Part shown: positions 10,693-47,453 of the stretch, one piece after another
How the letters are laid out: each line of letters opens with the position of its first letter
Numbering within the stretch: position 1 is the first letter of the stretch
Assembly (NCBI GenBank): GCA_001574975.1
Contig: KQ965740.1
Coordinates: forward strand, 669,591-733,590
DNA length: 64,000 bases
Direction of reading: 5' to 3'
DNA from: Gonapodya prolifera JEL478
Lineage: Eukaryota; Monoblepharomycota; Monoblepharidomycetes; Monoblepharidales; Gonapodyaceae
The notes under the pieces: model-generated
Database searches by the model: none
The model's input: the letters and a program-made list of their open reading frames with translations, nothing else
Told to the model about the DNA's origin: nothing
Made by a program: the position numbers and the translations under genes

Positions 10693-12725
10693 TTAAAACT
10701 CACTCTCAGGCTCGGCCTTCTTTCCGGCGGAGATGGGCTTCTCAACACCGAAAATCTCGTCCATCTGCTCGAGCGAGTGGCCGCGGGTCTCGGGAACGAA
10801 GAGGTACACGTACGCGGCCATGGCGATACCAGTGCAGCCGAAGACGATGTATTGGTAGGCACCGAGGTTCTGGGCGTATGCTATTGACGGACGGCAACGA
10901 TGAGAGACCGAAGTGGACAGGTGAACGTATTGCAACTTACGCCACACTTTTCCGAGGATGAGGTTGTTGATCCAGTTGGACATGGTGGCAAGACCGGCAC
11001 CCTTTCCGCGGACACGGAGAGGGAAGATCTCAGACTGGTACACCCAAACGACAGGTCCCCAAGTTCCGGAGACTAATAAAAAAGAATCATGAGCATCGGG
11101 AAATGTAACGCGAGGACTCAAATAAAACTCACAGCTGATGACGTAGAGGTACATGAAGATTGCTCCCATAATACCGAAGGCCTTGCCGGTAGCAGAGTTG
11201 GGGTCGGCCATCATGGAGCCCGGGTTGGCCGGGTCGGGGATCTCGGTGTTCTGGTAGAGCTTGACCCACATGACGAGCATCCACATGAAGAAGGACATCA
11301 AGAGACCACCACCGATCATAAGCCTGCGGCGACCGGCCCATGGGCGCTCGATGAGGTACATGCCGGGGAAAGTGCCGAGAACGTTGATGATGGACTGGAG
11401 AGTGGTGTTGATGGTGGTGGCAGTGTCGCGAGAGAAACCCATTCCGATGAAGAGGGCGGACGAGTAGTACATGGCGGCGTTGATACCGGTCCATTGCTGG
11501 AAGAATTGGAGCACAATGCCGATGATGACCTGATCCAAAATATTCGTGAGTAAGGCACAAAAAACGACGTATTCCGTGATCAACTCACCCTGTTGAGGAT
11601 ACCCTTNNNNNNNNNNNNNNNNNNNNNNNNNNNNNNNNNNNNNNNNNNNNNNNNNNNNNNNNNNNNNNNNNNNNNNNNNNNNNNNNNNNNNNNNNNNNNN
11701 NNNNNNNNNNNNNNNNNNNNNNNNNNNNNNNNNNNNNNNNNNNNNNNNNNNNNNNNNNNNNNNNNNNNNNNNNNNNNNNNNNNNNNNNNNNNNNNNNNNN
11801 NNNNNNNNNNNNNNNNNNNNNNNNNNNNNNNNNNNNNNNNNNNNNNNNNNNNNNNNNNNNNNNNNNNNNNNNNNNNNNNNNNNNNNNNNNNNNNNNNNNN
11901 NNNNNNNNNNNNNNNNNNNNNNNNNNNNNNNNNNNNNNNNNNNNNNNNNNNNNNNNNNNNNNNNNNNNAAGGAGAACAACTCTTGCGACTCACCATAAGC
12001 TGCTGGATGGCAGTGATGCGTCCACGGTAGGGAGTTGGGGAAACTTCAGCAATGTAGAGAGGGACGGTTCCGGAGAGAATACCGACACCGAAACCGCAGA
12101 AGAAACTAGAGGGAGTACATTAGCCACCGTGAAGACCGTGGCAAAACGACACTCAAAGCTCACCGGCCGGCGTAGAGTGATCCGATTCCGTTGGCAAGAC
12201 CTTGGAGGATACCACCGAGACCAAAGAGTGCTGCACCGATGATAATACTGCGTTTACGACCAATAAGTTTGGAGTCGGCAAGAAGAGTGACAGCAGCGGC
12301 ACCGGGAATGCAACTAACCAAAAGAACATCATGTCAAGGACAGAAGCGATGGAAGCGAGATGTGAAAGAACTCACCCAGCCAAGAAGAGCGATACAATGT
12401 TTCCTTCAAGATCGGCAGATCCGTCAAGGTTCTGGAGAGTTCCGTTTCCGAGACGGGTGGTGTTCGAAAGGCTGGAAGGAAGATACGACGGAACAATTAG
12501 ACTTCAGACCGGAAAACGATTGGTTCCGACTGCAACTCACCCAAAGAAGACACGGAAGGAGTCCATCTGAAGGACCTGGTTGATGATACCGATTTCATAA
12601 CCGAAGAGGAAGCCGCCGACGGCGGACGTGCTGACGGGGAGAGAGGAGCAGGGATGAGGAGGAGAACCATATCACATCGGCAGGCCTGGGACTCACAAGG
12701 CGATGAACCAAACTCTGAGATTCAT
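10693..12725 (-). CDS. MFS hexose transporter, copy 1 (interrupted by gap)
   Basis: Nine exons are visible (about 12725-12697, 12630-12541, 12471-12376, 12313-12164, 12105-11994, gap, ...-11589, 11529-11133, 11072-10941, 10880-10693). The start is MNLRVWFIAL. Sugar-porter family motifs are clear: GGFLFGYEIGIIN at the first helix, DSKLIGRKR in the cytoplasmic loop 2-3, FQQW-GIN in helix 7, and PETRGHSLEQMDEIF at the C-terminal loop. The protein would import hexoses across the plasma membrane by proton symport. One exon and parts of its flanking introns are hidden by 362 N. The gene is an inverted relative of the copy at 22742-24791, and a central block is almost identical between them. It ends in EPESEF, shorter than copy 2. 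Confidence 0.93.
11607..11968. other. Assembly gap (362 N) inside transporter copy 1
   Basis: The bases are unknown. The flanks (atacccttN on the left, Naaggagaac on the right) are exact reverse complements of the flanks of the gap in copy 2, and both gaps have the same length. Confidence 0.99.
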
Positions 12726-22741: not shown

Positions 22742-24791
22742 ATGAATATCAGAATTTGGTTCATCGCTTTGTGAGTCACAAGTCTGTCACCGTTGGCCTT
22801 CTCCTTTTCAACCATTCCTCTCCTTTCGCCTTCAGCACGTCCGCCGTCGGCGGCTTCCTCTTCGGTTATGAAATCGGTATCATCAACCAGGTCCTTCAGA
22901 TGGACTCTTTCCGTGTCTTCTTTGGGTGAGTTATTGACGAAGTTGTTTCTTGGCATGTGGAAATTTCATCGCCCATTCCCTTTTTCCATTAAGCCTTTCA
23001 AACACGAACCGTCTGGGCAATGGAACCCTCCAGAACCTTGACGGATCTGCCGATCTTGAAGGAAACATTGTATCGCTCTTCTTGGCTGGGTGAGTTCTTT
23101 CACATTTCGCTTCCATCGCTTCTGTCCTTGACATGATGTTCTTTTGGTTAGTTGCATTCCCGGTGCCGCTGCTGTCACTCTTCTTGCCGACTCCAAACTT
23201 ATTGGTCGTAAACGCAGTATTATCATCGGTGCAGCACTCTTTGGTCTCGGTGGTATCCTCCAAGGTCTTGCCAACGGAATCGGATCACTCTACGCCGGCC
23301 GGTGAGCTTTGAGTGTCGTTTTGCCACGGTCTTCACGGTGGCTAATGTACTCCCTCTAGTTTCTTCTGCGGTTTCGGTGTCGGTATTCTCTCCGGAACCG
23401 TCCCTCTCTACATTGCTGAAGTTTCCCCAACTCCCTACCGTGGACGCATCACTGCCATCCAGCAGCTTATGGTGAGTCGCAAGAGTTGTTCTCCTTNNNN
23501 NNNNNNNNNNNNNNNNNNNNNNNNNNNNNNNNNNNNNNNNNNNNNNNNNNNNNNNNNNNNNNNNNNNNNNNNNNNNNNNNNNNNNNNNNNNNNNNNNNNN
23601 NNNNNNNNNNNNNNNNNNNNNNNNNNNNNNNNNNNNNNNNNNNNNNNNNNNNNNNNNNNNNNNNNNNNNNNNNNNNNNNNNNNNNNNNNNNNNNNNNNNN
23701 NNNNNNNNNNNNNNNNNNNNNNNNNNNNNNNNNNNNNNNNNNNNNNNNNNNNNNNNNNNNNNNNNNNNNNNNNNNNNNNNNNNNNNNNNNNNNNNNNNNN
23801 NNNNNNNNNNNNNNNNNNNNNNNNNNNNNNNNNNNNNNNNNNNNNNNNNNNNNNNNNNAAGGGTATCCTCAACAGGGTGAGTTGATCACGGAATACGTCG
23901 TTTTTTGTGCCTTACTCACGAATATTTTGGATCAGGTCATCATCGGCATTGTGCTCCAATTCTTCCAGCAATGGACCGGTATCAACGCCGCCATGTACTA
24001 CTCGTCCGCCCTCTTCATCGGAATGGGTTTCTCTCGCGACACTGCCACCACCATCAACACCACTCTCCAGTCCATCATCAACGTTCTCGGCACTTTCCCC
24101 GGCATGTACCTCATCGAGCGCCCATGGGCCGGTCGCCGCAGGCTTCTCATCGGTGGTGGTCTCTCCATGTCCTTCTTCATGTGGCTGCTTGTCATGTGGG
24201 TTAAGCTCTACCAGAACACGGAGATCCCCGACCCGGCGAACCCTGGTTCGCTGATGGCCGACCCCGCCTCCGGTCCCGGCAAGGCTTTCGGTATTATGGG
24301 AGCCATCTTCATGTACCTCTACGTCATCAGCTGTAAGTTTTAATTTCGGTGATCGCGTTACATTTCGTGATGCTCATAATTCTTTTCATCAGTCTCCGCT
24401 ACTTGGGGACCTGTCGTTTGGGTGTACCAGTCTGAGATCTTCCCTCTCCGTGTCCGCGGAAAGGGTGCCGGTCTTGCCACCATGTCCAACTGGATCAACA
24501 ACCTCATCCTCGGAAAAGTGTGGCGTAAGTTTCACGCCGCTCACCTTCCTCATTTGTCTACCTCACCGTGACCATCCTTCACCAGCATACGCCCAGAACC
24601 TCGGTGCCTACCAGTACGTCATCTTCGGCTGCACTGGTATCGCCATGGCCGCGTACGTGTACCTCTTCGTTCCCGAGACCCGCGGTCGATCCCTCGAGCA
24701 GATGGACGAGATTTTCGGTGCTGAGAAGCCCATCTCCGCCGGAAAGAAGGCCGAGCCCGAGAGTGAGTTGGAGTGGTGCGCTGCTATCTGA
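22742..24791 (+). CDS. MFS hexose transporter, copy 2 (interrupted by gap)
   Basis: Exons 22742-22770, 22836-22925, 22994-23089, 23152-23301, 23360-23471, (gap)-23876, 23936-24332, 24393-24524 and 24586-24791 follow the same plan as copy 1. The start is MNIRIWFIAL. The sugar-porter signatures are GGFLFGYEIG, LIGRKR, FQQWTGINAAMYYSS, the GRRRL loop and FVPETRGRSLEQMDE. A plasma-membrane hexose:proton symporter is expected. From the end of exon 3 to mid exon 7 it is nearly identical to copy 1, introns included. Outside that block the introns, flanks and coding sequence differ. It ends ESELEWCAAI, about nine residues longer than copy 1. Confidence 0.93.
23497..23858. other. Assembly gap (362 N) inside transporter copy 2
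   Basis: The bases are unknown. Length and flanks mirror the gap in copy 1. One transporter exon (helices about 4-6) must lie inside. Confidence 0.99.
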
Positions 24792-26457: not shown

Positions 26458-29400
26458 TCACTCTCCCCTCCAACCACCGCTCTTCCCACCGCTCTTCTCC
26501 ACCACCCTGACTCCCGAAATGACAGCTCCCCTGTCAGCCGCCTTGCACATATCGTACAGCACAACAGCGGCCACGGAACACCCGTGCACAGCCTCCATCT
26601 CGCATCCTGTGCGGTCAAGTGCGGTGACCGAGCACGAAACATGGATTGGGAAACGTGGCACCCGGCGCGGCAGCGTGTAGTTGTATTCAGCTGCCCGCGA
26701 GTCCGAAATGCGGGAAGATTCGGGGAGATAGTCCGTCGCACCCCCTTCCTCGCCCTCTTCGGGAACGTCGGGAATAACCACCTCCACATCCACCCTACCG
26801 ATATTGACCATATGGCACATGGGCACCACGTCCCACGTGCGCTTCGCAGCAGCGGTTCCCGCGACTTTGGCGACCGCAACCGCGTCGCCTTTCGCGAGGG
26901 CTCCCTTTCGCAGCAGACGTGCCGCGTGCGCGGAGAGGTACAGGGAGCACCGTGCAGACGCGTGCCGGAGAGTTGGCGGTTTTGAGAGAACGTCCACCAT
27001 GTGGAGCGCACCGGAGGATGTAAGATGAGTCAAAGTCGCAGAGTCAGGGGGAGATGCACTTGATGGCAGCGTTTGGGTGGTGGAGGGCTGGATTCCAGTT
27101 GGGGTCGACGAAGCCACCAGAGCTGGTTCCTCCTCCACTGCTGTGGACACTTTCGCTGACCTCCTCCCAGCAGCCTTTGTGGCAAAGCCCCTGAGCGACT
27201 GACCTCCTGCGTTGTGAGCTATCCCACCAAGTAAGTTCAAAGTAACCTTAATCGACGAAGAATATGAGGTTATGGGAAGTTGAGGCAAGCGTGCAATAAC
27301 ATGGGCGAGTGCAAAAGTGGCGGGAGAAACTGGAGTATCCGTTGTCGAAACCGTCGATTCCGGTCGAAAGAGTGTAGTATCGGTGGAGCGGGTATACTTG
27401 CTGCTGACGCTGAGGTGACGAGGGGCGTGGAGAGGCTCTGCGGTGTGACGTGAATGGGTAAAAGTATCAGAACCACATTGGAATCGTCATCCTCGCAGCC
27501 CAACTTCGACTTCGCTCCTCAAACTGCTCCAGCTGTTCGCCAGTCCTCCCCCATTCCCCCTTGACATCGCAGCTCACCTTGATCCCAATACACTGCGTCA
27601 ATCGCCTCCAATGCATTTCTCCGCACCAACTTCGCACCTCCTCATATCCCTCAACACCAAGCTTATATCCTCCATCCTTTCACGACACGGGCCCCTTTCC
27701 CTCTTTCCCCCTCCTCACAACTCCGCCTCCCTCACCCCCCGATCAACACCATGGGCCTGTTTCCCCCCCTGGCCAACTCACCCGCCCCCTTATGCCCGGC
27801 CTCCTTCTCCCACACCGCCTTGCCCACCACGCCCATGATCCTTCTCTCGGCCTCTTCCGCGCCGAGACTGGGGTCCCTCAGAGCGCCCCTCAGGTCGAGC
27901 TCCCGCCCCGAGTGGAGACAGGCCTTGACGTGCCCGTCGGCAGTGAGACGGAGGCGGTCGCAGGTGGGGCAGAAGTGAGACGTCATGGAAGTGATGAATC
28001 CAAGGCGTGTGGACGGGTCAGAAGGGAGGTGGAAGGTCTGAGGGCGACTGAGAGATCGGACGAGGAGTGACAATCACGACGACATACTCACCTTTGCTAC
28101 TTCCCCACCGCCATTGCCCTCCACCTCCACCAACTGTCCAAATTCGTTCTCGAGGACATCCCTCATCTCCCTGTACGACACCATCTCTGTCCTCTCCCAC
28201 CCATTGCCTCCAAACGGCATGAGTTCGATGAACCTCACCGGGATCTTGTGCTGACCACACCAACGCTCTCCGAGGGCAAATTCACGGATGAAGCTGACGA
28301 GGTGTGAAAGGTTTACGGAACGGAGGACGACGACATTGAGCTTGACACGGATGGAGTGGGCAAGGAGGGCATCGAGAGTGGCCAGGACGGAGGAGAGACC
28401 TGGCGAATGGACAGGACATATGAGTGGGTATGATGAAATGTCAAATGGCGACGAGCGGTTGACAATGTGCCAGCGTTTGGTGGGAAGCTCTCATACATGG
28501 GCGACGGGTTGCTGCTCTCTCTCTGCCCGAATGACATCTAGCCTCCCACCCCGTCAGAAGTTGCAACTCGAGTCGGTTTATGCGCTTCAGCGTCACCATC
28601 CAGAAGCCGGTCCCTCATTCCCCATTGACAATAAACCAAATGGAATCCTCACCTCTCCGCCTCGCTACCCTCTCAAACCCCTCCTCATCTAACGCATCCA
28701 AGCTCAGATTCACACCGTCCAGTCCCGCCTCCTTCCACCCCGCGACCTTTCTCGCGCCCGCGATGCCGTTCGTAGTCATGACGATCTCATTGAGTCCCAG
28801 CCCCTCCTTACGCATGGCGTCCAGAGCACGAACCACGTCAAGCATGTCCTTGCGCAGTGTGGGTTCCCCGCCCGTCAGTCGGATCTTGTCCACGCCGTGA
28901 GAGATGAACAGTCGGCATAGGGTCAGAAGTTCAGGGGTGGTCAGCAGAGAGGGCTGGGGCGAGAGTGGCGCGCCTTCCGGTGGCATGCAGTATGTGCCTA
29001 GAAGAAGGGAGTAGTGAGCGGGGAGTTACAAAATGTCATACGATAAAGCAGGGTAAAGAAAAGCGCGATCTGAGTCTACGCTCTTTCGGAAAATTTGATG
29101 TTCCAGTCAACCTTCCCTCTGGGGTTTCCCAATTTCGGATTACCAGCCTTGTTTCAATCTGTTTCGCCCCAACAGTAACTCCCCGAAGAAGAAAATTGTC
29201 CTTATTTGCAGTTCCAGTCCCCCGACACCAGCACTGAACTACTCACACCTCAAATTGCACCTCTCCGTCAGTGACACCCTCAAGTACCTGTGCCTCCTAT
29301 CGAATCTGTCTACCAGAGGATGAGGCTGTTTCGCCCTGTCGGCCGGCCACACTGGTGTCAGAGCGTCGATCGGTGCGGGTCCGAAGGGATCCTCCGCCGG

Positions 29401-29859
29401 GGGAGCAGGGGAGGACAAGGGGGGTGGGAAGAGTGGGTGAGGGTTGAGGCGGTCGATGGAGGCAATGCGAGCCTGGTGGTGGAGGTGGTGGGCGATTGGG
29501 GTCAATGAATGACAAAGCACCAACGTGGGATCGTAATCGACAAGGACCACTGGACGTCATTCCGGTGCCGAAGCCAGAAAATGTGGCTTTGACTTTCTCA
29601 TCTATCGCCTCGTACTCACCCGTGCCCGTTCCTTGGCCGCCATCATACCCGCAACAGCAACTCGGTCCGTGTCCGTGCCACCGAAGTCCACGTCAAAACC
29701 CTCTCCTCCTGCCAGTTCCTGACGGCTCAGTGCTGTCGCATGCGCCGATGCCAACGATCGAGAGCGTAAGCAGAGGGCGGGGATCGGGACGTGGAGTGTG
29801 GGGATGGTGCGCACTCTGGGACGAGAGTGCAGTGCGATGAGGGTGGGGAGAGCGCGCAT
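26458..29859 (-). CDS. Molybdenum cofactor synthesis MoaA-MoaC (MOCS1/cnxABC type)
   Basis: Exons 29859-29620, 29472-29247, 28997-28653, 28399-28092 and 28037-27736 encode MoaA, and 27409-26458 encodes MoaC. MoaA has an Arg-rich, mitochondrial-type N-terminus, the radical-SAM cluster CNLRC|TYC at about residue 151, RLTGGEPTLRKD, MTTNGI, SLDALD, the second cluster FCPTC...CLHS and the C-terminal IGG. MoaC has LTHLTSSGALHMVDV, AAKRTWDVVPMCH, GCEMEAVHG, YDMCK and EKSGGKSG. Together they turn GTP into cyclic pyranopterin monophosphate, the first step of Moco synthesis. Reading straight on from exon 5, MoaA stops after Gly-Gly (474 residues). Splicing at the GTGAGG there to AG at 27410 gives one 790-residue fusion in perfect phase. 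MoaC has no upstream ATG of its own, so the fusion is the likely source of MoaC. Moco implies enzymes such as nitrate reductase or sulfite oxidase elsewhere. Confidence 0.92.
27410..27735 (-). other. Putative retained/spliced intron between MoaA and MoaC
   Basis: The donor GTGAGG overlaps the MoaA stop codon: ATC GGG GG|G TGA. The acceptor CACCTCAG is at 27417-27410. Retention yields MoaA with a free Gly-Gly end, and splicing yields the fusion. The intron also contains a protein-like frame (ending ARMTIPMWF) of unknown meaning. Confidence 0.6.
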
Positions 29860-32234: not shown

Positions 32235-33675
32235 ATGAGCGACCGAAACAGCAGCTGGAAGTTTCTCTTGGCCACGCTGGCAATCGTCCCGGCATTGGCG
32301 CAGGCGGTGAGTCGGCATTTTAAGGATGGCATTGTGGTTTTGACCAATACTTACGTCCGTCTGGTTTGGACACACCCCGATCCGCAAAACGCAGACCCCT
32401 CAGCAATGCGTGATCAAATCGTATGACACCGTCTCCAACTGCCTCACCTCCTCCAATATCGTAATCCAAGGCCCATTCACCGTTCCCTCGAACCAAGTGA
32501 TCGACATGACCAATCTGGTTTCGGGGGCCAAAGTGACCGTCAAGGGCACCATCACATGGGCGGCCGGGACGCTCAACAAGACCAATTGGCTCTTCAACAT
32601 TGGGGGATCCGGCGTCACGTTTGATGGAACTGGGGCGACGTTCGATGGTAACGGCGCTTCGTATTGGGACGGCAAGGGCGGGAACGGTGGCGTGCCCAAG
32701 CCCAAGATGTTCCGGTCCTTATTGACTGGCAACTCTCTCGTCAAGGGGATCAAGATCCTGAATGCGCCTGTGCACGTCTTTACGATCCTGGGCTCCGACA
32801 CGACCTTCGACCATATCACCGTGGACGACTCGGCGGGGACGAGCAAGGGCCACAACACGGACGCCTTTGGTGGGTACCTTGGGTGTCGCGCGTTGATGCG
32901 ACAAAGACTAACGGAACGCCTTCCCTCCCCCACACACACCAGACGTCAGCGCGACAAACATCATCATCCAAAACTGCATCGTCATCAACCAAGACGATTG
33001 CCTGGCCGTGAACTCGGGCTCCAACATTCGGTTCCTTAGCAATCAGTGCACGGGGGGCCACGGAATCTCCATTGGGTCTGTCGGAACAGGGCAGACAGTG
33101 TCGGATGTGCTTGTGCAGAACTGCACCGTGAACAGCGAGGATAATGGTAAGGGTCTTCGCCTTCATCTGTTGACGTGGAAAAAAGTCACTGAGTTGCGTC
33201 CACTGCCAATTTGCTTTCTATTTGTCCCTGCTTCCGCCACCAGGCCTCCGGATCAAGACGATCAGCAACGCGACAGATGGTTACGTGCGCAACATTGTAT
33301 GGAAGGACGTGATTTTGAACAGCATTGGCAAGTACGGTATCGTGATCCAGCAAGACTACCAAAATGGAGGTGTGTATCCGTTGCAATCTTGGTTTGGTTT
33401 CTTTCGGTCAAGCTTAATCACACGACGCCCTTCTTCCTGCATTGTCTTTACTCCTCAATGCAATTCCAGGACCCACTGGCACTGCAGGTTCTGGAGTCCC
33501 AATCACCAATGTGACTGCGATCAACGTGCACGGCACGATGGCGTCGGGCAGCCGCAGCAACATCTATATCCTGTGCGCCGCGTGCAGCGAGTTCACCTTC
33601 AGCAAGGTCGCGATCACGGGCGCCGCACCGAACTGCACGGGGATCAGCCCGGCGCCGCAAGGTTGCAGTGCGTAG
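32235..33675 (+). CDS. GH28 endo-polygalacturonase 1 (intact)
   Basis: Five exons (32235-32306, 32404-32869, 32943-33146, 33244-33369, 33470-33675) give 357 residues. Exon 1 encodes a secretion signal (FLLATLAIVPALAQA), so the mature enzyme would start near QCVIKSYDT. All four catalytic GH28 blocks are present: NTDAFDVS (Asp 177/180), NQDDCLA (Asp 197/198), [11 protein letters not shown] (His 219) and RIKT (Arg 250, Lys 252). The enzyme hydrolyses alpha-1,4-galacturonan in pectin outside the cell. The length and the C-terminal paired cysteines (ILCAACSEF, NCTGISPAPQGC) fit fungal endo-acting members. Codon use is strongly GC-ending, as expected for a highly expressed secreted enzyme. It is followed in tandem by a dead copy. 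Confidence 0.95.
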
Positions 33676-34752: not shown

Positions 34753-36271
34753 ATGAGCGACCGAAGAGCAGCTGGGCGTTTCTGGGGCGGCGCTGGCTAT
34801 TGTCCCGGCGTTGGCGGTGAGACGGCAGTGAGGTGGGGATGGCAATGTGCCATGTGGTTACGTCAACTCACGCCAGTCCTCAACTACCTCCTGTCAACCA
34901 CCAACTCCCCAGCAATGCGTGATCAACTCGTACGACACCGTCACCAACTGCCTCTCCTCCTCCAACATCGTCTTCCAAGGCCGCTTCACGGTCCCCTCGA
35001 ACCAAGTTATCAACATGACCAACCTGGTCTCGGGGGCCAAATTGACCGTCAAAGGCACCATCACATGGGCCCCCGGTACGCTCAACAAGACCAACTGGCT
35101 GTTCAACATTGGCGGGTCCGGCGTCACGTTCGACGGCACTGGTGCGACGTTCGACGGCAATGGCGCGGCGTACTGGGACGGTCTGGGCGGAAACGGAGGC
35201 GCGCCCAAGCCCAAGATGTTCCAGTCCTTTTTGACGGGCAACTCCCTCGTCAAGGGGATCAAGATCCTCAACGCTCCTGTGAACGTGTTCACCATCTTCC
35301 GGTCCGACACGACGTTCGACCATATTACGGTGGACGACTCGGCGGGCGACCCTGTAAACGGGCAAGAGAAGGGCCACAACACGGATGCATTTGGTGGGTG
35401 GTGTATTTTTCTCGCTCTTCGCTTAGGTCTGGACGTCACTTTTACCATGCCCCATGTGAACACATCTAGACGTCTCCGCTACCAACATCGTGATCCAAAA
35501 CTGCGTCGTGGTCAACCAAGACGACTGCTTGGCGGTCAACCAGGGTTCCAACATCAACTTCATCAACAACAAGTGCACGGGGGGCCACGGCATTTCGGTC
35601 GGGTCCATTGGAACAGGGAAGACGGTCTCAGACGTGCTTGTGCAGAACTGTACCTTGAACAGCGAGGATAACGGTGCGTTTGCGTTTCATCGTCCGGTAC
35701 CTGTCTTGCATGTACGGAGGTACGAAGTTGCGTCCACTTGCCAAACTGCTCTCCCCTTCCCCCCNNNNNNNNNNNNNCCTCTTCCCCTGCAACTGCGGCT
35801 ATGACGCGCAAGCCTCCGGATCAAGACAACCAGCAACGCGACGAACGGTTTCGTGAAGAACGTTGTGTGGAAGGATATCACGCTCAACAACAACGGCAAA
35901 TACGGCATCGTGATCTAGCAGGACTACCAAAACGGAGGTGGGTGTCCCGTGCTCTTGTTTTACGCATTTGTGCTTGCATCAGGCCCACTTGGGCATCTGT
36001 CAAAAACAGCAAATTAAAACATGTGCTGACATCTCCTTACCTCGTCCCCCTCCCCACACATCCAGGACCCACGGGAGTACCCGGCACGGGTATGCCCATT
36101 AGCAACGTGACCGCGATCAACGTGCACGGCACGATGGCGGCGGGCAGCAAGAACAACATCTACATTCTCTGTGCGGCGTGCAGCCAGTTCACGTTCACCA
36201 AGGTCTCCATCACGGGCGCTCCGCCCAACTGCACGGGCATCAACTCGGCGCCGAGGGGCTGCAAGGCGTAG
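34753..36271 (+). pseudogene. GH28 polygalacturonase 2 (decayed copy)
   Basis: The exon plan equals that of GH28 copy 1 (34913-35393, 35470-35673, about 35815-35939, 36066-36271). NTDAF, QDDCLA, GGHGISVG and RIK-equivalent sequence are all still present, and an insertion (GDPVNGQEK) precedes NTDAF. Three independent defects are seen. The ATG frame does not run into the signal peptide, whose AALAIVPALA lies in another frame. The acceptor before exon 4 reads CAA|GCCTCC where copy 1 has CAG|GCCTCC. The CAG of VIQQDY has become TAG at about 35919. Intron 3 holds a small N gap. Sequencing error could explain one defect but hardly all three. Exon bodies remain well conserved, so loss is recent. Confidence 0.8.
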
Positions 36272-43781: not shown

Positions 43782-44024
43782 CGGTGGAGAGGGGAAGTTT
43801 GAAGCCTAATAAACCGTTTTCCCTCCACACAGCACCGCCCCCACAAGCACCGCCTGCTGCTCATGAACCCAACCAAATCCTTCCGTACCAACTCTTGGTC
43901 GCACTTAGCATATTCTGTAATTGGAAAATATGGGGATTAAGCTCTCCCTTTCAAAGAGAAAAGGTTTGACTACTATGAATATTTACATTCATCTCGTGGA
44001 CTCAGCGTCGAGACCTCCACTGAA

Positions 44025-45385
44025 TCAGCACCCCTCAGGTGCCGGGCTAATACCACTGCATTTGGGAGATGCACCGGTGATAGAACCTTTGCTAAAAGTG
44101 AAGTCGTAGCACGCAGCGCAGAGAATGTAGATGTTGTTCCTGCCCTTGGAGGCCATGGTGCCTTGGACGTTGATCGCGGTGAGGTTCGAGATGAAATTCC
44201 AGAGCCCGGCTTGCCAGTGGAACCTATCGGACAAGCAAATGAATTCGTATATGAGCAGAAGGGGTAAAAGAGGGAAAGTACCTCCATTTGATAGTCCTGC
44301 TGGATCACGATACCGTCCTTGTTAATGCTGTTCAGAGTTATGTCCTTCCAGACAAAATCTTTGACAAATCCGTTGGTGGCGTCGCTAATTGTTTTGATTC
44401 GGAGACCTTCAGAAAAATCCGTCAGCAACAAACCATATACTGCGCGAGGAATGATAACCGTACCATTGTCATTGCTTGTGATGGTGCATCCTTGAACCAG
44501 CACGTTGGAGACAGAGTTTCCAGTTTTAACGGAGCTGGGGAGGGAGCAACGAATGAATTTGTTCCTCCAATGTGATCCAAGGGCGCCACGGCTCACCCAA
44601 TGGATTCCGTGACCTCCGGTGCACTGGTTGTCCAAGAACTGGATGCCAGATCCGGAGTTTACTGCCAAGCAGTCATCCTGCTTGATGACGATACAGTTCT
44701 GGATGATAATGTTGGTGGCAGAGACGTCTCCATGGACAGCAGCGATAGATTGTATTCGGGCGAAAGCGGAGCCTACACTTCAACTCACCAAAGGCGTCGG
44801 TGTTGTGGCCTTTCTCTCACCCGCTGTGTCGTCCACGGTGATGTGGTCAAAGTGGTGTCGGAACCGCTAATGCTGAAAACATGGACCGGCGCATTCAAGA
44901 TCTTGATCCCCTTCACCAACGAGTATCCTGTGAGCAGTGACTTGAACATCTTCGGTTTGGGAACGCCGCTATTCCCGCCCTTTCCGTCCCAGTGCGAAGC
45001 GCCGTTGCCGTCAAACGTAGCACCAGTACCGTCAAACGTGATGCCAGACCCGGCAATTGTGACCAGGCAGTTTGTTTTGTCAAGTGTCCCCGCCGCCCAC
45101 GTGATGGGCCCTTGACGGTGACTTTGGTGCCGGACTTGAGGCCGGACATGTCGATGACTTTGTTCGAGGGCATGGTGAATGGGCCTTGGATGACGATATC
45201 GGTCGACAAAAGACACTTAGATACAGAATCAAAAGAGTTGATAATACATTGCTGATGGGGAGCGGCGTTAGTCCGGAGAATGTTGGGAGGAGCGGGTGTT
45301 TAGTTCTCACCGCATATCCCTGAGAGCGAGACAGTTCGGTGAAGGCGAGCAGCGGCACTGGAATATGTAAGTAGCGCCGAGGCAT
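44025..45385 (-). pseudogene. GH28 polygalacturonase 3 (decayed copy)
   Basis: The layout matches GH28 copy 4: a signal-like exon (ATG of MPRRYLHIPV), then [52 protein letters not shown] and a C-terminus ending GISPAPEGC. The reading frame shifts at several separate points relative to copy 4: after KVTVKG, at SDTT, before KGHNTDAF-equivalent sequence, in GGHGI, at QDYQ and in the last exon. That is about six small deletions, so it is dead. It shares intron positions with copy 4, including the extra intron within the GHGISIG region that copies 1 and 2 lack. It is therefore a tandem duplicate of copy 4, older in its decay than copy 2. Confidence 0.85.
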
Positions 45386-46080
45386 TTTGCGAATGGGGAC
45401 TGGGACTGCTCGTTGAGAATCGACGTTCGTGAGAGTTAAGGGAGGCACGTGGACGTGGACGGAGGTCAGGGTTTGAAAGGGGCAGCCCCCAGGCACCTCT
45501 CCACTATCCGCTAGGCAACTTAATGCCCGAGAGGCTCGGTCCACTCTTGGAGGAGAGAAGTTTTACATGCGTATGCGCCAGGCGAATTATTCGGATGGCG
45601 GAACCGTCCAAGTTCCGGTGCTTTTCCGAGGGTGTCATGATTATTGATCTGATTGGCCGGTTTTCACACGAAAACAAGCATGTATGTATTCGATTTGCGA
45701 AACCTCAGGTAATTATGCACAGAGAGCAAAAGACCGCGAGAGCAAAGGGAAGTCTATGAGACACGTTAAGCGTTCCAGAATTGAATCTCCCTCCAATCAT
45801 CTTGATCCATTTAGCAACAGAAAACGTTGAATCACTGCCTCCCGTCAAAGAGAGAGAATAGCAAGCGGAATTCGGGAAGTGGACAGAAAACAAAAAATTC
45901 TCGTGGGCGAAAAAAAGATAAGGGTGTATTGTTTTTCGGCTGTCCGACAGTGGACAATTATTTACATATGTATCAGCGTACGATTGATCAATCCATAAAT
46001 ATCAAAACCGGACCACGGGGTTTCACACAGAAGACTGTTCCACCGTCGGACGCGACAGCACCCCTACGCAGTTCCTGCGT
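45386..46080. other. Intergenic between GH28 copies 3 and 4
   Basis: No gene is seen in 690 bp; it holds the promoter remnant of copy 3 and the 3' flank of copy 4. Confidence 0.4.
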
Positions 46081-47453
46081 CTAGCAGCCTTGCGGTTTCG
46101 GGCTGATGCCAGTGCAGTTGGGATTTGCACCGGTGATACCGACCTTGCTGAAGGTGAACTTGCTGCACGCAGCGCAGAGAATGTAGATGTTGTTCTTGGC
46201 GCCCGATGCCATGGTGCCTTGGACGTTGATCGCGGTGACGTTCGAGATGGGTATTCCAGCGCCAGGGATGCCAGTAGGACCTGTTGGACGCGAAATGAAT
46301 TCGCGTACCGAAAGCTCAACAAAATTCTGAGCGTACCTCCGTTTTGGTAGTCCTGCTGGATCACGATACCGTAGTTGTTGATGCTGTTCAGGGTAATATC
46401 CTTCCAGAGAACGTTCTTGACGGATCCGCCGGTTGCATCACTGATGGTCTTGATACGGAGACCTGGCGTTGCCAGAGTTTGTCACAAGAGTGTTTCAAGA
46501 AACTGGAATCTTTGAGAGAGGCTCACCATTGTCTTCGCTCGTGATGGTGCAGCCTTGAACCACCACATCAGAAACGGTTTTCCCACTTGCAATGGACCTG
46601 ACAGGGGAATGGGGAGTAAACAAAACTGCTCCTCTCCAATGCGATCGAGCAATTAACAACTCACCCAATGGAGATTCCGTGGCCTCCGGTGCACTGGTTG
46701 TTCAGGAATTGGATGTTAGACCCGGAGTTTATTGCCAAGCAGTCGTCCTGGTTGGTGACGATGCAGTTCTGGATGATAATGTTGTTGGCAGAGACGTCTA
46801 CATACATTCAATGATATTCGGTCAGGGTGAACTACAGAACCGAGACACAGCACTCACCGAAAGCATCTGTGTTGTGGCCTTTGCTCTTGCCTGCTGTGTC
46901 GTCCACAGTAATGTGGTCGAAGGTGGTGTCGGAACCGCCAATGCTGAAGACGTGGACCGGTGCGTTCAAGATCTTGATCCCCTTGACCAACGAGTTTCCC
47001 GTCAGGGTGGACCGGAACATCTTGGGCTTGGGCACGCCCCCGTTGCCGCCCTTTCCGTCCCAGTACGACGCGCCGTTGCCGTCAAAGGTGGCGCCGGTGC
47101 CGTCAAATGTGATGCCCGAGCCGCCGATGGTGAACAGGTAGTTGGTCTTGTCGAGTGTTCCCGCGGCCCACGTGATGGTACCCTTGACGGTGACTTTGGT
47201 GCCGGACTTGAGGCCGGACATGTCGATGACCTCGTTCTTGGGGACGGTGAAGGGTCCTTGGATGGTGATGCTGGTCGAGGCGAGACATTTGGACACGGTG
47301 TCGAACGAGTTGATAACGCATTGCTGAGAAGAGAGTGTAATCGCCCAAGTCTGAGAAGAAGCGGGCCCGATCTGGTTCTAAAGCTGTGAAACTCACCGCG
47401 TAGGCTTGAGAGCTGGCCAACGCCAGAGTCAACAGCAAGAGGATGGCGCGCAT
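46081..47453 (-). CDS. GH28 endo-polygalacturonase 4 (intact)
   Basis: Six exons (47453-47397, 47323-46858, 46797-46665, 46597-46527, 46462-46337, 46280-46081) sum to 350 residues in one frame. Exon 1 is a secretion signal ([19 protein letters not shown]). Catalytic blocks are complete: [24 protein letters not shown] and RIKTIS. Secreted pectin (homogalacturonan) hydrolysis is expected. Compared with copy 1 it has one more intron, splitting IGS after the catalytic His, and a different signal peptide, so the two intact genes belong to separate sub-lineages. A minus-strand TATA box (CTATAAAAC, 47526-47518) lies 65-73 bp upstream of the ATG. Confidence 0.95.

Follow-up and report, generated by a model that had tools for sequence, protein, structure and literature searches.

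A MoaA–MoaC gene of Gonapodya prolifera that probably acts as a splice switch of the nit-7 type

A single gene on the minus strand (29859–26458) of the window, which here means the whole 64,000-nt stretch that was analyzed, encodes a complete MoaA followed by MoaC, the two enzymes of the first step of molybdenum-cofactor synthesis. This gene is probably a fungal orthologue of Neurospora nit-7 and animal MOCS1 that acts as a splice switch. It has two domains, a stop codon at Gly-Gly of MoaA, two in-frame donor/acceptor pairs, and no ATG in the MoaC frame ahead of the conserved core. If the last intron is kept, translation would end after Gly-Gly and lead to active MoaA (GTP 3',8-cyclase) with the required free C-terminal Gly-Gly. 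Removal of the last intron would result in loss of the stop and in a MoaA–MoaC fusion of 784 or 790 amino acids. In this fusion, the MoaA part would have no free Gly-Gly at its end and should be inactive, and it may act as a carrier that brings MoaC (cPMP synthase) into the mitochondrion, where cleavage of the linker would set MoaC free. By analogy to nit-7, we assume that the gene gives rise to both RNAs, that neither protein is dispensable, and that MoaC is freed in this way. The initial annotation had also proposed MoaA synthesis by intron retention and MoaC synthesis by a spliced fusion. This part of the proposal fits the sequence and equals the mechanism demonstrated by experiment for nit-7 (PMC7232280), while the donor/acceptor pair on which it was built, 27735/27410, is not the sole in-frame pair.

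MoaA and MoaC parts of the gene

Matches to PF04055, PF06463, and PF01967 were all found within one reading frame once the predicted introns were removed, and we infer that MoaA and MoaC share a single transcription unit. The exon junctions of MoaA were anchored on peptides. Five exons with GT–AG junctions result in a MoaA protein of 474 amino acids, which ends with RPMVLIGG followed by TGA. Exon 1 (29859–29620) starts with the ATG at 29859, and the Arg-rich N-terminus is free of acidic residues for 47 amino acids and resembles a mitochondrial presequence. This acid-free stretch includes an RSL|AS motif, and its length is not unusual (shuffle P 0.31). Exon 2 (29472–29247) ends within the radical-SAM motif CNLRC|TYC, and exon 3 (28997–28653) is followed by the donor GTGAGG, suggesting that this hexamer is used in the MoaA–MoaC gene. 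Exon 4 (28399–28092) is also bordered by GT–AG junctions, and exon 5 (28037–27732) ends in the unspliced reading with GGNRPMVLIGG and the stop codon TGA at 27734–27732. The remaining introns of the gene are up to 249–253 nt long, so a switch intron of 326–344 nt is only modestly outside that range.

The 474 aa protein matched TIGR02666 (GTP 3',8-cyclase MoaA) with an E-value of 1e-91 and 307.4 bits (cutoff 284.05). The alignment spans positions 1–336 of the 336 positions of the model and reaches the C-terminal Gly-Gly. That the unspliced product covers the model completely and over the cutoff supports the switch. Both cysteine triads for Fe-S clusters (CNLRCTYC and CPTC...C) are present in the aligned region. 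The protein also matched the structures 1tv7/1tv8 of MoaA from S. aureus (E 3e-45). When bacterial and archaeal genomes were searched for relatives, one bacterial MoaA with 40% identity was obtained, and none were found in viral contigs.

The MoaC reading frame extends from 27486 to 26458. The MoaC domain itself (27033–26458) comprises LTHLT...HMVD...KSGGKSGGWRGE and ends with the stop at 26458. PF01967 matched over its entire length (E 5.8e-40, model positions 1–136 of 136), and the match to TIGR00581 was barely over the cutoff (142.9 vs 141.5 bits). Compared to bacterial MoaC, the domain has an insertion of about 38 amino acids (26810–26650, around GEEGGATDYLPESSRISDSRAAEYNY), which separates the two conserved halves, and solved MoaC structures align to both sides of it. 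The identification of both MoaA and MoaC is beyond doubt. In the MoaC frame 151 open codons precede the start of the LTHLT core, and none of them encodes Met. The earliest Met is that of the conserved HMVD motif (codon at 27000), in agreement with the initial annotation, which had stated that MoaC has no usable ATG before its core. Consequently, it would be hard to make MoaC except as a fusion.

The adjacent upstream gene on the same strand (31187–30297) codes for a protein with a NADAR domain (PF08719, E 6e-53). Searches with Rfam and for tRNAs gave no matches. Elsewhere in the window, a sugar-transporter gene (PF00083) is present in two inverted copies (11120–12481 on the minus strand, 22984–24345 on the plus strand), which are 98% alike over 1362 nt. 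They are about 10.5 kb apart and each contains a stretch of Ns in the corresponding position of the gene, so the pair may have arisen either by recent inverted duplication or through an artefact of the assembly. A cluster of GH28 (polygalacturonase-like) genes apparently consists of four diverged copies on both strands (32344–33666 and 34832–36271; 43973–45216 and 46075–47331 on the minus strand), which are 73–79% alike in pieces. The copy near 44 kb appears irregular, with an odd insertion around GGHGI, and is possibly a pseudogene, and the stretch at 46.1–47.3 kb was recognized by DNA similarity only. The GH28 enzymes, the sugar transporters, the short GT–AG introns, and the MoaA–MoaC fusion gene are all in keeping with a fungal origin of the window.

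Splice sites at the MoaA stop codon and the linker

The stop codon of MoaA lies inside a 5' splice site. In the sequence ATC GGG GG|GTGAGG, the GT at 27735 starts the donor and TGA at 27734–27732 terminates MoaA, and thus we reproduced the double function described in the initial annotation. This overlap is less improbable than it appears, because a protein end of Gly-Gly-TGA reads GGTGA whenever the final wobble base is a G, and this makes up most of a G|GTGAG donor. When a donor matrix derived from 16 introns of the window was applied, only two GTs in the region scored above 9, and both possess in-frame acceptors into MoaC, which also supports the switch. The donor overlapping the stop (27735–27730, GGG|GTGAGG, phase 2) scored 9.8 and is among the top 0.39% of all GTs in the window. 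The other donor (27781–27776, CGG|GTGAGT, phase 1) is located 46 nt further upstream and is slightly stronger, with a score of 11.1 (top 0.26%). Splicing from 27781 would drop the last 16 residues of MoaA (…ELARGGNRPMVLIGG) including Gly-Gly. An additional donor-like GTGAGG just past the stop (27718–27713) would leave Gly-Gly and the stop of MoaA intact, and an in-frame acceptor into MoaC is absent for it.

Two acceptors match these donors in frame. The acceptor at 27439–27438 (CACCGCAG|AG, phase 1) is the best of those in frame with donor 27781 and is out of frame with donor 27735. The combination 27781/27438 defines an intron of 344 nt and a fusion of 784 amino acids. The acceptor at 27411–27410 (CACCTCAG|CG, phase 2) is in frame with donor 27735 and out of frame with 27781. 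Here, 27736 is joined to 27409 and 326 nt (27735–27410) are removed, resulting in a fusion of 790 amino acids without an internal stop that keeps Gly-Gly internally. The initial annotation had proposed that the AG at 27410 restores the frame into MoaC, and this was reproduced. Donor 27735 is in frame with the AGs at 27404 and 27401 as well. The crossed pairs 27781/27410 and 27735/27438 were also tested; both shift the frame.

Neither of the two acceptors was outstanding by its matrix score, and the acceptor matrix, which is based on 16 introns, was too noisy to decide. The acceptors were weighed by the branch site and the AG spacing in place of matrix scores. The sole match to CTRAY within 27520–27395 is the branch-point-like sequence CTGAT at 27470–27466, with the branch A 29 nt before the acceptor at 27438 and 57 nt before that at 27410. 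The AG at 27438 is the first AG past the branch site, and the AG preceding it is 54 nt upstream, which is mid-range among the 16 reference introns. For the AG at 27410 another AG is present just 26 nt upstream. The splice-site evidence therefore leans to 27781/27438, because of the better donor score and the better acceptor context. The location with respect to Gly-Gly speaks for 27735, as the donor of N. crassa is located at the Gly-Gly codons, while the intron phase speaks for 27781, since the N. crassa intron is in phase 1, as computed from construct coordinates. Taken together, the sequence moderately favors the pair 27781/27438; 27735/27410 is a less likely but serious candidate, and a smaller share of the probability falls to other sites. 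The pair given in the initial annotation is in frame, but it has an in-frame competitor, 27781/27438, which had been missed and to which it is not clearly superior.

The RNA around both donors (27860–27640, minus strand) was predicted to fold better than shuffled sequences (z -2.7, 3/200; a single region was tested). In this fold, GAUCAUGGGC pairs with GCCCAUGGUGUUGAUC just ahead of the Gly-Gly codons, and the helix encloses donor 27781 and leaves donor 27735 outside.

The linker between MoaA and MoaC (27437–27034) contains no Met. It is part of an open frame of 152 codons, for which the chance probability is 0.4–1.9%. The longest run of the fusion without Asp or Glu, 67 amino acids with 7 Lys/Arg, is found in the linker (shuffle P 0.03), and within this run RGF|AT resembles a presequence cleavage site (P 0.03). 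Motifs of this type (R-3 motif) are cut in mitochondrial presequences. Acid-free run and motif are suggestive, no more, of a cleavage or import signal ahead of MoaC. The codon usage of 27396–27172 in the MoaC frame resembles that of non-coding sequence, and codon usage does not clearly mark the start of the linker. This may be due to a fast-evolving linker or to a more distant acceptor (27330, 27207).

Alternative explanations

A reading that goes further than the splice switch alone combines two mutually exclusive, phase-locked splice pairs with a linker equipped with a mitochondrial presequence and a cleavage site of its own, which would resemble the situation in animals and differ from that in N. 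crassa. One pair would produce a tail-less fusion and the other a fusion with embedded Gly-Gly, while crossed pairs would destroy MoaC. If true, a fungal retention switch would be joined to an animal-like import of MoaC, but we consider this unlikely. We regard it as improbable that the fusion is constitutive, with the intron being removed in practically all transcripts, a bifunctional MoaA–MoaC performing both steps, and the Gly-Gly-stop persisting as an ancestral remnant. In favor of it, the donors 27781 and 27735 are strong and the branch site is plausible. However, the MoaA tail is complete up to the final residue of TIGR02666 and the stop is exactly placed, which is hard to explain if this sequence is never translated.

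Even less probable to us is a separately made MoaC. This could have a promoter of its own and an initial exon within the intron (e.g., ATG at about 27615, donor 27577, AAG|GTGAGC), or translation could reinitiate on a bicistronic mRNA. The intron does contain an ATG-started stretch of 13 codons, which is followed by a good donor (score 8.5). When such a MoaC start exon was examined, it was poorly supported: the nearest in-frame acceptors for an exon inside the intron are GAG/AAG, the others are deep in the linker, and MoaC has no Met before its core. Moreover, NIT-7B of N. crassa alone, starting from M623, failed to reach mitochondria, and NIT-7A together with NIT-7B failed to restore wild-type growth (PMC7232280). 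The lowest probability is assigned to the same switch with an intron end further downstream, at 27330 or 27207, and a shorter linker. The non-coding-like codon usage would agree with it, the top acceptor score is that of AG 27330, and both 27330 and 27207 are in frame with donor 27781. On the other side, the frame is open throughout, the linker length resulting from 27438 or 27410 agrees with nit-7, and the intron would increase to 452–575 nt, the longest seen here. A switch with one of the two pairs identified above remains our preferred explanation.

Comparison to nit-7, MOCS1, and cnxABC

The study on the splice switch of nit-7 reportedly builds on earlier work by Probst et al. from 2014. 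The only intron of nit-7 in N. crassa is 237 nt long and carries the functional Gly-Gly motif as well as the stop (PMC7232280). The unspliced RNA leads to NIT-7A and the RNA lacking 1460–1696 to NIT-7AB, with the donor located at the Gly-Gly codons; the strain table lists NIT-7A as nt 1–1467 and NIT-7AB as 1–1459 plus 1697–2664 (PMC7232280). N. crassa needs both proteins, and a strain without the spliced form showed no significant growth on nitrate (PMC7232280). NIT-7B is freed from the fusion following mitochondrial import, and the unspliced form increases under nitrate induction (PMC7232280). Thus, there is a direct precedent in fungi (PMC7232280), and the animal-like arrangement that the initial annotation inferred for this fungus is not novel.

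The Gonapodya gene shares with nit-7 the order MoaA-linker-MoaC in one gene, a (here predicted) MoaA product of the unspliced RNA with Gly-Gly encoded inside the intron and fusion product of the spliced RNA, a donor located at the codons for Gly-Gly, another donor close by, and comparable lengths of proteins and linker. The agreement in domain order and sizes supports the predicted switch. The proteins of nit-7 have about 488 and 808 amino acids as computed from the coordinates, compared to 474 and 784 or 790 amino acids in Gonapodya. The distance from the junction to M623 of NIT-7B is about 135 residues, and 136–145 residues separate the junction from the HMVD Met in Gonapodya, but M623 may be non-homologous to this Met. 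Different from the single 237 nt intron of nit-7, four extra introns are present in the MoaA part and the switch intron has 326–344 nt. Furthermore, the second strong donor is located upstream and has its own acceptor, and the linker of the MoaC frame has no ATG, while M623 is a candidate start in nit-7.

Most likely, the Gonapodya gene is a further fungal example of the known nit-7 mechanism. When the literature was searched for this switch in additional fungi, the Neurospora study alone was found (PMC7232280). No new kind of mechanism is opened, but the nit-7 switch would extend to a fungal gene whose introns are arranged differently, which suggests that the control of the initial step of molybdenum-cofactor synthesis by intron retention is conserved outside Neurospora. 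The gene also provides a concrete case for how the donor changes its place with respect to the Gly-Gly codons in evolution and for how MoaC gets freed from a fusion.

The cnxABC locus of Aspergillus nidulans, compared here by description only, likewise combines the two catalytic domains in one place in a fungal genome. The initial annotation had considered it a fixed fusion, while a bicistronic transcript is discussed for cnxABC in the literature (PMC7232280). In animals, alternative splicing at the 3' end of the MoaA part of MOCS1 results in MOCS1A or MOCS1AB, MOCS1B is cut from the fusion, and an internal targeting motif is present ahead of MOCS1B (PMC9607355). A splicing choice at the 3' end of MoaA is also predicted from the sequence of the Gonapodya gene. 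In human MOCS1, alternative splicing of exon 9 leads to bicistronic or monocistronic mRNA (PMC9607355), whereas retention of one intron is predicted for Gonapodya.
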